A stretch of 64,000 nucleotides of DNA. Origin: Methanoregula sp. SKADARSKE-2. GTDB taxonomy: Archaea; Halobacteriota; Methanomicrobia; Methanomicrobiales; Methanospirillaceae. The stretch is taken from NCBI GenBank assembly GCA_030919125.1, contig CP121470.1, positions 1,720,391-1,784,390 on the forward strand, written 5' to 3'. A model generated the notes under the pieces. That model made no database searches and was not told where the DNA came from. It saw only the letters and a program-made list of their open reading frames with translations. A program made the position numbers and the translations under genes. Below are positions 3,393 through 35,625 of the stretch, piece by piece; positions within the stretch are counted from its first letter, which is position 1; each line of letters begins with the position of its first letter.

Positions 3393-4287
3393 AGAGAATT
3401 CTGAAAAATTCCCCCTGTAGCCGGTAGTACTTTATCTTAGTACGATCAATGACGAGTATGGAAAATCTGGTTGATTTTGCGCTCGAGAAGCGGTATGAGA
3501 GTATCAAACGACTCGGGGATCGGCTTGACGGATTTTCGACATTAATCAATTGGGAGAGGTTTCTGACGGTAGTGGGAGGTCTGTATCGAAACCAGACCGA
3601 AGAGGGCGGTCGACCGAATATTGATATCGTTCTCATGGTTAAGATGCTGGTACTCCAGTCGATGTACAGCCTGTCCGATCCCGAACTTGAGCGTCAGGCC
3701 AATGATCGCATATCATTTATGAAATTCCTCGGGTATCCTAACAAGGTCCCGGATCAGACCACCGTCTGGTATTTCCGGGAGCGGTTGGCAAAGACCGGAA
3801 AGGATAAGGATATCTGGGATGAGCTCCAGCGACAACTCGATGCACAATGTCTGAAAATCAAAAAAGGCACCATTCAGGATGCGACTTTCATCACCTCAGA
3901 GCCCGGTCATGCTTCAACGAATACACCCCGGGGTGATGCTGCAAAAACTCGAAGAAGCCGGGATGGAACATGGGCGATAAAGGGCAAGAAATCTTATTTT
4001 GGATACAAACTCCATACCAAAGAGGATTGTGACTTCGGACTGATCCGGGCTCTCGAGGTTACAACACCTCAACCCACGATTCTTTGATCGATCTGCCAAT
4101 GAAGGTGATGTGATTTACCGGACGCTTTCATCAAGAATGTGTTTTACTCCGCGCATACCCGCGTCACCACGGTTTTCAGAGTCCACGCAAAAATGGTATT
4201 CTTGACATTCAGCTTCAACCTGTTTCAACTTGCAACTCTCAAAAAAGAAGGGTACTTGAGCGGATGCTGTTGATAAAAAACTGAAAT
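3393..4287 (+). mobile_element. IS5-family insertion sequence, damaged copy (mosaic)
   Basis: The first ~680 bases (3393-~4075) match the complete copy at 34586-35625 almost base for base; I count only a handful of differences. After about 4078 the two remain alignable but drop to roughly 75-80% identity, and an internal block of about 150 bases (present near 35308-35465) is missing. The shared right edge ends at the tail ...AAAAAACTGAAAT in both copies. I could not find clear terminal inverted repeats or a target duplication, so the outer limits are set only by where the two copies stop matching. Confidence 0.8.
3449..4087 (+). pseudogene. Truncated IS5-family transposase
   Basis: The open frame covers the first ~205 residues of the 325-residue transposase seen intact at 34642-35619. 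It keeps the N-terminal helical domain and the first catalytic aspartate (in IQDATFI). A one-base change near 4067 shifts the frame just after RALEVTT, and the later catalytic Asp and Glu are lost through the shift and the internal deletion. The copy cannot move itself. It could still supply a DNA-binding N-terminal fragment if expressed. Confidence 0.85.
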
Positions 4288-23073: not shown

Positions 23074-23218
23074 CCAGGAACGTTCTCCTCTCTCATAGGG
23101 TATGTCTTGTCAAGAGTTCGTGGCTTGTCTGAAACCTCTCTCTTGAAAAACTCCCCAAAAAATGACGGGAGCATCACTGCTGAACCGGATGACTGAAAAA
23201 AATTTTCAGTTAAAGAAT

Positions 23219-23230
23219 TTTTTTTAAATG
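23219..23230 (+). promoter_or_regulatory. TATA box for the cysteine-rich peptide gene
   Basis: TTTTTTTTAAAT ends about 22 bases before the ATG at 23252. Because it overlaps the upstream ATG at 23228, that earlier codon would lie in or before the promoter. This supports the 23252 start. Confidence 0.5.
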
Positions 23231-23251: not shown

Positions 23252-23533
23252 ATGTCCGGCCCGTACCATTCCCTTTTTGTAAAAGGTTTTGTCATCATCG
23301 CGGTACTCCTTGCCCTTGCGGTTCCGGCCGCTGCGATGAAAATTACTCCAAACACCGCTGTATGCAGTACATCGATCGTCTCCCATTCTGCAGGGTACCC
23401 TACGCTGTTTTCGGAAATCTCAGACTGCCAGCATGACTGTTATCATTTATGTGCAATCGTCTGTAGCGATGGATGGTGCATGATCAGCTGCATGAGAAAT
23501 TGTGACCGCTATTGCGAGGAAGAGAGTTCATAA
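23252..23533 (+). CDS. Small secreted protein with a double (CX3C)-ladder hairpin
   Basis: 93 residues. A signal peptide (about residues 8-28, VKGFVIIAVLLALAVPAAA) precedes a mature peptide of ~65 residues. Its C-terminal part holds eight cysteines at 59, 63, 67, 71 and 76, 80, 84, 88: four at exact four-residue spacing, a short turn (SDGW), then four more at the same spacing. A ninth is at 38. Each row would line one face of a helix, giving a helical hairpin that could be disulfide-zipped or bind metal. I do not recognise the family. The gene is monocistronic, downstream of the helicase and convergent with TBP. The start at 23252 was chosen from the TATA box position. Confidence 0.75.
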   Translation: MSGPYHSLFVKGFVIIAVLLALAVPAAAMKITPNTAVCSTSIVSHSAGYPTLFSEISDCQHDCYHLCAIVCSDGWCMISCMRNCDRYCEEESS

Positions 23534-23773: not shown

Positions 23774-24328
23774 TTACATTATGCTCTCGAGTTTCTGCTC
23801 GAGGAAATCAAGCCCCTTCTTGATATCTTCCAGGTTCTTGCCACCGGTCAGGATGATCTTTCCGGAGGAGAAGAGGAGCGCGACGATCTTCGGATCCTTG
23901 ATACGGTAGACGAGACCCGGGAATTGCTCGGGCTCGTACTCGATGTTCTCAAGGTTGAGCGTGATCACGACTTTGTTGAGGTTGATGTACTTACCGATAT
24001 CGTACGAGCAGACGATGTTGGTGATAGCCACCTTCGGCTCATCAAAGGTGTCGACGCCCGCTTCCTTGAGCGATTTGATGATGATCCCAAGGCCGTCCGT
24101 GAGCGCTTTTTTGTCCCGAATGCCCGTGAGTACAACTTTACCTGAGGAAAAGATCAGTGAAGCAATCTTCGGGTTCTCGATGCGGTAAACTGCACCGGGG
24201 AACCTCTTGGTATTGAGTTCGCAGCTCGGGATCTTCTTTGAGACCTCGACAAGATCGATGGAATCGGCGATAACGCCGGATGCTACGATGTTCTCAATTT
24301 TTAACGATTCGTACTTTTTATCAGCCAT
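23774..24328 (-). CDS. tbp: TATA-box-binding protein
   Basis: 184 residues with the two-fold TBP repeat. Repeat 1 (about 7-95) contains RFPGAVYRIENPKIASLIFSSGK, and repeat 2 (about 98-182) has the matching QFPGLVYRIKDPKIVALLFSSGK. The protein binds TATA boxes and recruits TFB and RNA polymerase. The sequence looks fully functional. Whether the genome has further TBP copies cannot be told from this window. Confidence 0.97.
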   Translation of the reverse strand: MADKKYESLKIENIVASGVIADSIDLVEVSKKIPSCELNTKRFPGAVYRIENPKIASLIFSSGKVVLTGIRDKKALTDGLGIIIKSLKEAGVDTFDEPKVAITNIVCSYDIGKYINLNKVVITLNLENIEYEPEQFPGLVYRIKDPKIVALLFSSGKIILTGGKNLEDIKKGLDFLEQKLESIM

Positions 24329-24525
24329 CCACTATACTATGATTGTGCCAGAATCATAATACTAATGCACAACCTTTATGTCCCCTCGCTGACCCGCATT
24401 TTGCCGTCGTTGTCCTGTCCTCAGGTACCGCCGCTCCGGGCGCAGGTCCCTTTCCCATCCTCTCCTCCTTCGCGGCCGGATGGAGAGATTGATGAGCCCC
24501 CCATGAAACATTAGTTCCTGATTAT

Positions 24526-26165
24526 ATGGCAAAGACGGGCAGCGTTCCAGTTACGAAGAGATAAAGAGGACAGTCTCCAGCGAAGTCCCGGAATACTTCA
24601 ACTTCGGGTTCGATCTGATCGACAGCTGGGCAAAGAAGGACCGGAACAAGGATGCGATGATCTGGGTAGACCAGAACGGTGAAGAGAAGAAGTACAGTCT
24701 CCTCGACCTCGCAAACCTCTCCAACCAGGCTGCAAACGCCCTCCTGAAGTATGGGATTAACAAAGGCGACCGGGCGCTGGTCCTGCTCCCCCGGAACGCG
24801 GAGTAGTGGATCTTCGCCATCGCACTCAACAAGCTCGGTGTGGTCTTTGCCCCCTGCCCGACCATGCTCACCCCTCCTCCGGGACATAAAGTACCGGACC
24901 AATGTCGGGAAATTCCGGATGATCATCACCGATCTGGAAAACACCGGTAAGGCCGAGGAGATCTGCGATGAGTGCCCGAGCCCCACTGCCCGGATGATTG
25001 CGGATGACGAGAAGCAGAGCTGGGAGAGCTTCCCGTACGAGTTCCTCTATCCCGCTCCGGTCTCCCACCGGTCTGTCAGCATTCTGGACTCCCGGAAGAC
25101 CCGGAGCAGCGACTCGATGCTGATCTCCTTCACCTCCGGTACAACCGGCGAGCCCCAGATGGTCCTCCATAACAACGGATATCCACTCGGCCATCTCCGC
25201 TTTACGGTCTCCAACACCGGTTGGGCTAAGTGTGCATGGGGCAAGATCTTCGGCCAGTGGATCGAAGGCGCCTGCAATTTCGCATACCTCTTTGATGGCA
25301 GGTTCCAGGCTACCGAGGCCGTCCCGCTCTTCCAGAAGTACCAGGTCACTACTTTCTGCTGCCGCCAACAATCTACCGTATGCTTATCCTTGCAGACCTC
25401 AAGCGTTTCGATCTCACCTCGCTCCGGCACTGCTGCAGCGCGGGCGAGCCCGTCAACCCTGAGGTCATCAAGGCCTGGAAGGACGCGACCGGCCTGACGA
25501 TCTTCGAAGGCTATGGGCAGACCGAGACCGTGCTGTGCATCGGCACCTTCCCCGGCATGACCCCGAAGTTCGGGTCTATGGGCCGGCCGTCGCCCGGCTG
25601 GAACATTGAGATCCACGACGATCACGGGAGACCTGTAGGCCTGCACGAAGAGGGGAAGATAGCGATCAAGATCAACCCCCGCCCGATCGGAATGTTCCGC
25701 GAGTACCTCAACAACGATGAGGAGAACAAAAAATCCTTTGTCGGCGATTGGTACTACACCGGTGACAAGGCATACAAGGATGAGGACGGGTACTTCTGGT
25801 TCATTGGCCGTGACGATGATGTGATCAAATCATCAGGCTACCGGATCTGGCCGTTCGAGGTTGAGAGCGCCCTGATCGAGCACCCGGCTGTGCAGGAGGC
25901 TGCGGTCGTGGGCTCACCAGACGATATCCGAGGGCTTGTGGTGAAGGCGTTCGTGATCTTAAAGCCGGACGTGAAACCCTCCGACACGCTCGTGCAGGAG
26001 ATCCAGAACCATGTCAAGAATGTCACCGCACCGTACAAGTATCCCCGGCAGATCGAGTTTGTCGACTCGCTCCCGAAGTCCATCTCCGGAAAGATCCGGC
26101 GCAACGAGCTCCGGGACCGGGAGATGAAGACCTTCATGAACGAGTCGAACGGCAAGAAGGCCTAA
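24526..26165 (+). pseudogene. Broken AMP-forming acyl-CoA synthetase (medium-chain type)
   Basis: Three frames together spell one acyl-CoA synthetase of about 545 residues: N-terminal pieces from 24526 (EVPEYFNFGFDLIDSW), the middle in the frame 24751-25380 with the P-loop-like ISFTSGTTGEPQMV, and the intact C-terminus from 25380 (FEGYGQTETV, YYTGDKAYKDEDGYFWFIGRDDDVIKSSGYRI, and the catalytic lysine region SISGKIRRNELR). Lesions visible are a frameshift near 24550, an in-frame TAG after LLPRNAE (about 24804), a frameshift near 24885 and another near 25365. The family activates acetate or longer acids as acyl-CoA. The gene is clearly dead as a whole. Confidence 0.88.
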
Positions 26166-34585: not shown

Positions 34586-35625
34586 AGAGAATTCTGAAAA
34601 ATTCCCCCTGTAGCCGGTAGTACTTTATCTTAGTACGATCAATGACGAGTATGGAAAATCTGGTTGATTTTGCGCTCGAGAAGCGGTATGAGAGTATCAA
34701 ACGACTCGGGGATCGGCTTGACGGATTTTCGACATTAATCAATTGGGAGAGGTTTCTGACGGTAGTGGGAGGTCTGTATCGAAACCAGACCGAAGAGGGC
34801 GGTCGACTGAATATTGATATCGTTCTCATGGTTAAGATGCTGGTACTCCAGTCGATGTACAGCCTGTCCGATCCCGAACTTGAGCGTCAGGCCAATGATC
34901 GCATATCATTTATGAAATTCCTCGGGTATCCTAACAAGGTCCCGGATCAGACCACCGTCTGGTATTTCCGGGAGCGGTTGGCAAAGACCGGAAAGGATAA
35001 GGCTATTTGGGATGAGCTCCAGCGACAACTCGATGCACAATGTCTGAAAATCAAAAAAGGCACCATTCAGGATGCGACTTTCATCACTTCAGAGCCCGGT
35101 CATGCTTCAACGAATACACCCCGGGGTGATGCTGCAAAAACTCGAAGAAGCCGGGATGGAACATGGGCGATAAAGGGCAAGAAATCTTATTTTGGATACA
35201 AACTCCATACCAAAGAGGATTGTGACTTCGGACTGATCCGGGCTCTCGAGGTTACAACTGCCTCAACCCACGATTCGCAAATCGACCTGTCGAACGAAGG
35301 AGAGGTGATCTACCGTGACCGAGGATATTTCGGTACCAAAACAAAAGGTTTCAACACCACCATGCAACGGGGTGTTCGTGGGCATCCGATCGGTATCCGC
35401 GATGTTCTCAAAAACGCTCGAATCTCTCGAATCCTATCTCCCGGGGAACGCCCATATGCCGTCATCAAGAATGTGTTCCATTCTGCTCATACCAGAGTCA
35501 CAACTGTTCTCAGGGTGTATACCAAAATGCTGTTCTCGGCCTTCTGCTTTAACCGGTTTCAACTCGCAACCCTCAAAAAACAAGGGGTTCTTGAGCGGAT
35601 GCTCTCGACAAAAAACTGAAATGTG
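34586..35625 (+). mobile_element. IS5-family insertion sequence, complete copy
   Basis: The left shared edge with the copy at 3393 is AGAGAATTCTG and the right shared edge is AAAAAACTGAAAT. The element contains one intact transposase gene filling almost the whole length. I could not identify clear terminal inverted repeats or a target-site duplication by eye, so the ends could be several bases off. Confidence 0.8.
34642..35619 (+). CDS. IS5-family transposase
   Basis: 325 residues. The N-terminal domain (about 1-130) includes the family-like YSLSDPELERQANDRISFMKFLG and the segment VPDQTTVWYFRERL. The catalytic DDE core is visible as IQDATFI (first Asp), VIYRDRGYFGTK (second Asp) and SPGERPYAVIKNVF (likely Glu), with YGYKLH-like FGYKLHTKEDCDFGL between them. 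The frame is intact, so the copy may be active. An ATG three codons downstream is an alternative start. Confidence 0.9.
   Translation: MTSMENLVDFALEKRYESIKRLGDRLDGFSTLINWERFLTVVGGLYRNQTEEGGRLNIDIVLMVKMLVLQSMYSLSDPELERQANDRISFMKFLGYPNKVPDQTTVWYFRERLAKTGKDKAIWDELQRQLDAQCLKIKKGTIQDATFITSEPGHASTNTPRGDAAKTRRSRDGTWAIKGKKSYFGYKLHTKEDCDFGLIRALEVTTASTHDSQIDLSNEGEVIYRDRGYFGTKTKGFNTTMQRGVRGHPIGIRDVLKNARISRILSPGERPYAVIKNVFHSAHTRVTTVLRVYTKMLFSAFCFNRFQLATLKKQGVLERMLSTKN

Follow-up and report, generated by a model that had tools for sequence, protein, structure and literature searches.

Helical hairpins closed by disulfides are known from the small Tim and CHCH proteins, a eukaryotic group oxidised by Mia40, in which twin CX3C or CX9C motifs form two rungs and are joined by long loops. 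In plants, the six-cysteine alpha-hairpinins carry the pattern CX3CX3CXnCX3CX3C, with bridges along the hairpin having been shown for 2NB2, and the family has been delimited by a 4C/6C core, CX3C(X3C)X4-20CX3C(X3C), with at most two additional cysteines outside it (PMC11591084). Cysteine-lined helices have also been described in the copper storage proteins (Csps), four-helix bundles forming tetramers, of which the exported members carry Tat leaders; Csp3 binds Cu(I) through CXXXC pairs lying in the same helix (PMC5171941). A similar spacing, CX3CX3C, is found on one half of sactibiotic-like peptides of the thuricin CD class (PMC3132745). Among methanogens, extracellular, intermolecular disulfides have been proposed in the sheath of Methanospirillum hungatei (PMC10593813).

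A peptide with a longer pattern of this kind is encoded by Methanoregula sp. SKADARSKE-2, in a 64,000-nucleotide stretch of its 1.95-Mb genome (the window). An open reading frame of 93 residues plus stop, at 23252-23533 of the forward strand, has cysteines at 38, 59, 63, 67, 71, 76, 80, 84 and 88, the last eight of which form the motif CX3CX3CX3C-SDGW-CX3CX3CX3C. The two ladders around the SDGW turn, following a signal peptide, had been proposed in the original prediction and were confirmed by translation; its inventory was right for the eight ladder cysteines and had omitted the ninth, C38, in the linker. The features are listed below with the basis of each, G192 being another genome of the same genus.

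23184..23210, no strand assigned: conserved block with the inverted repeat ACTGAAAA-AAA-TTTTCAGT (23192-23210), candidate operator; comparison with G192
23220..23229, + strand: TATA-like stretch TTTTTTAAAT, lying some 27 nt ahead of the ATG; read from the sequence
23252..23533, + strand: ORF of the double cysteine-ladder peptide; translation, syntenic 48% identical orthologue in G192, dN/dS 0.34
23252..23335, + strand: putative Sec-type signal peptide, residues 1-28; read from the sequence, cleavage guessed after VPAAA
23336..23416, + strand: linker, residues 29-55, fast-evolving, carrying the ninth cysteine C38 (23363-23365); alignment and codon counts
23426..23464, + strand: first ladder, C59, C63, C67 and C71 (CX3CX3CX3C); translation, all four cysteines kept in G192, predicted helix 56-70
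23465..23476, + strand: turn SDGW, residues 72-75; DGW invariant in the alignment, non-helical in both AlphaFold2 models
23477..23515, + strand: second ladder, C76, C80, C84 and C88 (CX3CX3CX3C); translation and alignment, predicted helix 74-92

The leader of the peptide (MSGPYHSLFVKGFVIIAVLLALAVPAAA) has neither a lipobox nor twin arginines as read over residues 1-28. Its core, AVLLxLAVPAAA, is conserved in the G192 orthologue, and residues 6-27 are predicted to be helical in a full-length AlphaFold2 model. Among 122 crudely called exported-like ORFs from stretches covering the genome, the peptide is the most cysteine-rich, with nine cysteines in 67 residues, 91 of the 122 having two or fewer. 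The leader sequence and this comparison both point to export through a Sec-type leader, which would leave a mature mini-protein of approximately 65 residues, with the ladder region (CQHDCYHLCAIVCSDGWCMISCMRNCDRYC) following the C38 linker. The mature peptide is acidic, with a net charge of -4 to -5, and a cationic antimicrobial peptide has been rejected on this account. Concerning the start codon, the ATG at 23252 has been favoured over an in-frame upstream ATG at 23228, since G192 has ACG at the latter site.

A protein search across 232 genomes of the order has revealed a clear homologue in one of the 231 other genomes, the orthologue in G192 (E 9.4e-23, 48% identity), and two of 39 genus members carry the peptide. 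The original prediction had been staked on a homologue keeping the cysteine spacing in related genomes, and this is what the alignment gives: all eight ladder cysteines and the DGWCM segment are kept in G192, as are M77, M81, D85 and Y87 of the second ladder. Each orthologue has a total of nine cysteines, the one outside the ladders lying in the linker, at residue 38 of the present peptide and at residue 44 in G192. Between the two, dN/dS is 0.34 for the whole peptide and falls to 0.21 over the ladder; the linker drifts freely. The G192 copy is also syntenic, lying in a gap of approximately 700 bp between the end of an Lhr-type helicase gene and a convergent TBP gene; this gap measures only 29-69 bp in most other genus members, and no relative or remnant of the peptide was detected in the longer helicase-TBP gaps of other members. 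Such longer gaps, 600-1000 bp in length and devoid of any ladder-peptide relative, are seen at L333, L344 and L348.

None of 300,000 random placements of nine cysteines in the 65-residue mature part gave the double ladder, and the status of the gene rests more on the comparative evidence than on these trials. An unexpressed or decaying frame would agree with a clear homologue in just one other genome of 232, but the orthologue with its synteny, the open frame, the dN/dS of 0.34 and the conserved upstream block make this reading hardly credible; a chance ORF has been rejected on the syntenic orthologue, the dN/dS and the upstream block. A recent transfer between the two carriers was also rejected, since the flanking-gene tree does not group them as sisters and the similarity of their helicases does not exceed that seen between other species. 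Their position on the tree suggests that the gene would be either ancestral with frequent losses or moved long ago.

With regard to known families, sequence searches against Pfam, NCBIfam and PDB were empty or at chance level, Pfam giving nothing up to an E of 10 and NCBIfam only chance GMP reductase matches at the same threshold, which is consistent with the original statement that no named archaeal family has this ladder. A two-row profile search of the order and of a 394-genome sample of the phylum added no other clear member, nor did a protein scan of genome contigs, viral contigs, phages and plasmids; the matches at E of about 1e-4 to 1e-2 in these family searches were without the ladder, short, or covered the leader only. 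The DNA pattern of the ladder is common elsewhere, the matches listed from genome and viral collections being almost all low-complexity or tandem-repeat/microsatellite frames, and among these listed matches the pattern scans neither prove nor exclude distant relatives. Sequence comparison thus indicates that the peptide gene is real, conserved and lineage-restricted, and that it belongs to no catalogued family.

Conservation extends upstream of the gene, where ACCGGATGACTGAAAA(AAA)TTTTCAGT has been kept in G192 bar one inserted A, within a poorly conserved intergenic region. With 0-6 spacer bases allowed, the palindrome occurs at one place in each carrier genome and in one of 37 other genus genomes, there at an unrelated place, and the exact palindrome has no second copy in the rest of the window or elsewhere in either carrier genome. 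It sits just before the TATA-like stretch, the position of which would suit an archaeal transcript with a short leader or none, and may serve as the operator of the peptide gene. A function as terminator of the helicase gene was rejected, as the RNA hairpin barely beats shuffles (z -1.1) and no T-run follows it in G192.

The helical hairpin anticipated by the original prediction has been recovered by AlphaFold2, in which the mature pair is modelled, from an input of two sequences only and with an overall pLDDT of 64, as antiparallel helices at residues 56-70 and 74-92 (H28-42 and H46-64 of the mature chain) with a ladder pLDDT of 84-85. The full-length model has the same helix pair, and in the mature model the linker is predicted to be disordered, with pLDDT <50 for mature residues 1-25. 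In antiparallel pairing, the positions 59-88, 63-84, 67-80 and 71-76 each sum to 147, which constitutes an exact register. A rigid-helix optimisation with 100 degrees per residue brought all four CB-CB distances to 3.3-5.0 A, and one with 98 degrees to 3.4-4.3 A; the outer distances of 5.0 and 4.9 A at 100 degrees indicate that four consecutive i+4 rungs strain ideal helices. This optimisation, a crude check of feasibility and no substitute for a structure, allows four simultaneous disulfides with near-ideal helices.

Nothing significant was found by Foldseek against PDB (best E >1), as the small size of the hairpin would lead one to expect. Close shape overlap (rmsd 1.2-1.4 A) was seen solely with disulfide-closed plant alpha-hairpinins, the three-rung Nigellin-1.1 (2NB2), which the model overlaps at rmsd 1.2 A over 35 columns, and Jug r 2, with vicilin-buried peptides, Luffin P1 and BWI-2c also returned in a first search. 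As in alpha-hairpinins, especially the six-cysteine Nigellin-1.1, a secreted precursor and an antiparallel helix-loop-helix are predicted, and the stretch from C63 to C84 reads CX3CX3CX4CX3CX3C (C63, C67, C71-X4-C76, C80, C84), which falls within their core motif. Disulfides along the hairpin, a further mark of the family, would be allowed in the peptide by the crude geometry. Unlike the alpha-hairpinins, the peptide has eight ladder cysteines instead of four or six, is archaeal and not of plant origin, is acidic, and has three cysteines outside the 6C core (C38, C59 and C88), where the family definition admits two; no sequence match or significant fold relationship to them was found. It may be described as the 6C alpha-hairpinin motif with one more rung, and the likeness is most likely a case of convergence. 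The original prediction had turned for comparison to Tim/CHCH and copper storage proteins, which are not the nearest, and had not included the closer six-cysteine alpha-hairpinins; no small Tim/CHCH Pfam match of the peptide was obtained at E up to 10.

The best reading of the peptide, given about an even chance, is that of a helical hairpin zipped by four disulfide rungs. The C-terminal part would fold outside the cell as an antiparallel hairpin and would oxidise to the ladder C59-C88, C63-C84, C67-C80 and C71-C76. It would be the scaffold of the plant six-cysteine alpha-hairpinins with a fourth rung, most likely arrived at independently. In support of this, the syntenic orthologue, at 48% identity, retains the eight ladder cysteines and the turn despite a drifting linker. 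The odd total of nine cysteines in both species fits four internal bridges and one thiol for an outside partner; the single extra cysteine, in the linker, would remain unpaired and could anchor the peptide to the envelope or couple it to a partner or to itself. As to its role, the best guess is a hyper-stable acidic extracellular binding peptide, placed under its own palindromic operator and present in a minority of species.

The redox setting of the host counts against such a zip. The organism, in which a TBP gene adjoins the peptide gene, is a methanogen and has been taken as a strict anaerobe because mcrA is present; no VKOR was found in either carrier genome, and a crude scan of stretches covering the host genome gave no obvious CcdA candidate. 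Nonetheless, extracellular disulfides in this host are plausible, since it has an exported thioredoxin-like protein with a CSHC motif (PF00085; L381:4093-4584, G000:C1 about 242893-243384) and disulfides have been proposed in the sheath of another methanogen. The exported CSHC protein is in itself a candidate extracytoplasmic thiol oxidoreductase in a VKOR-less methanogen. The wider claim, that a natural hairpin laddered by four disulfides has been invented in a strictly anaerobic methanogen devoid of VKOR, is more tentative and is placed somewhat below an even chance. If it is true, it would imply a new hyper-stable miniprotein scaffold and an unrecognised way for methanogens to fold proteins oxidatively outside the cell. 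An oxidised ladder would raise the number of rungs in the cystine-stapled helical hairpin to four, from two or three, and would bring the fold to an anaerobic archaeon, a setting in which little is understood of oxidative folding outside the cell and for which the peptide would be a small and easily synthesised test case.

The anaerobic, VKOR-less host would also suit a thiolate metal binder, whose cysteine-lined helices, kept reduced and perhaps dimerised into a four-helix bundle, would hold Cu(I), Zn or another soft metal and scavenge or deliver it outside the cell. Consistent with this are the Cu(I)-binding CXXXC pairs of Csp3, the invariance of M77 and M81 beside the ladder, and the likeness to Csp1/Csp3 and DUF326 proteins in having CXXXC along helices, with the thiolates on one face of the predicted helices. 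However, neither genome has a DUF326 (PF03860) match and the peptide has no Pfam match, the chain is predicted as a hairpin of two ladder helices and not as the four-helix bundle of Csps, the perfect mirror register fits pairwise bridges with no metal involved, and no metal gene occurs among the neighbours scanned. The original prediction had left the choice between up to four disulfides and a metal cluster; four bridges do fit the crude rigid-helix model, and metal binding stands as an unlikely though serious alternative, under which the peptide would constitute a minimal Csp-like hairpin.

An exported, extremely cysteine-rich peptide with an odd number of cysteines might instead cross-link the cell envelope, the cysteines of many copies forming intermolecular disulfides within the archaeal surface layer, as the bonds proposed for the Methanospirillum hungatei sheath would suggest. 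The mirrored spacing on the two sides of the short conserved turn speaks for closure within one molecule, and carriage by only two of 39 genus members indicates that the peptide is not a core part of the envelope. Cross-linking is thus considered improbable.

By periodicity, the nearest proteins are the CXXX-repeat radical SAM targets of TIGR04114 and TIGR04117 (the latter named 'Cys-Xaa-Xaa-Xaa repeat radical SAM target'), which are short and exported with a cysteine at every fourth residue. The sole compact ladder proteins among the matches listed, the exported-looking L160:7012-7374 and L143:5354-6058, have continuous CX3C ladders and match TIGR04117 below cut-off; they are themselves possible unrecognised targets of this type. 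These matches, along with a TIGR04083 peptide-modifying radical SAM enzyme which the host has in common with G192, speak for a CXXX-repeat peptide that would receive thioethers from a radical SAM enzyme acting in trans and then be exported. The ladder peptide, though, has no TIGR04117 or TIGR04114 match even at E up to 10, its ladders are shorter, and its Sec leader lacks the twin arginine of L160. Neither the window nor the DNA up to 10 kb from the G192 copy contains a long ORF with CX3CX2C, no radical-SAM-like ORF or maturase being found nearby in either genome, and none of 18 radical-SAM-like ORFs scanned across the genome stretches was a CXXX-repeat maturase, a count in which ORFs cut by stretch boundaries could be missed. 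The cysteines of sactibiotics are confined to one half of the peptide and a radical SAM gene is adjacent, neither of which holds here. The placement of the TIGR04083 gene between mcrA and mtrE also suggests another substrate. The radical-SAM RiPP reading is therefore weakened, and is regarded as very improbable.

The TIGR04083 radical SAM/SPASM enzyme (L387:401-1567, G000:C1 about 358601-359767) lies directly between mcrA and an mtrE-like gene, named by eye from its sequence, and an 80% identical copy is found near mcrA in G192. This location suggests McrA or another methanogenesis protein as its substrate. The pattern scans have also revealed giant Gly-rich proteins whose CX3C arrays contain up to 122 cysteines, in L071, L159 (Termititenax-like), L118 and the viral contig L280 (6590-8029); those scanned have no Pfam or NCBIfam match, and the L280 protein matches phrog_6085, of unknown function.

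Additional aspects have been observed in the window and the genus. The TBP gene (window 23774-24328; genus loci L328-L357) is heavily duplicated in the genus, with up to eight TBP-like matches in G169 and paralogues 50-90% identical to the query. An acyl-CoA-synthetase-like coding region with an TSGTTGEPQMVLH motif (window 24522-26165) is split over at least two overlapping frames and looks frameshifted or decayed. The ORFs at 3449-4087 and 34642-35619 share an N-terminus (MTSMENLVDFALEKRYESIKRLGDRLDGF...) and are probably copies of one mobile-element gene, one of them shortened.
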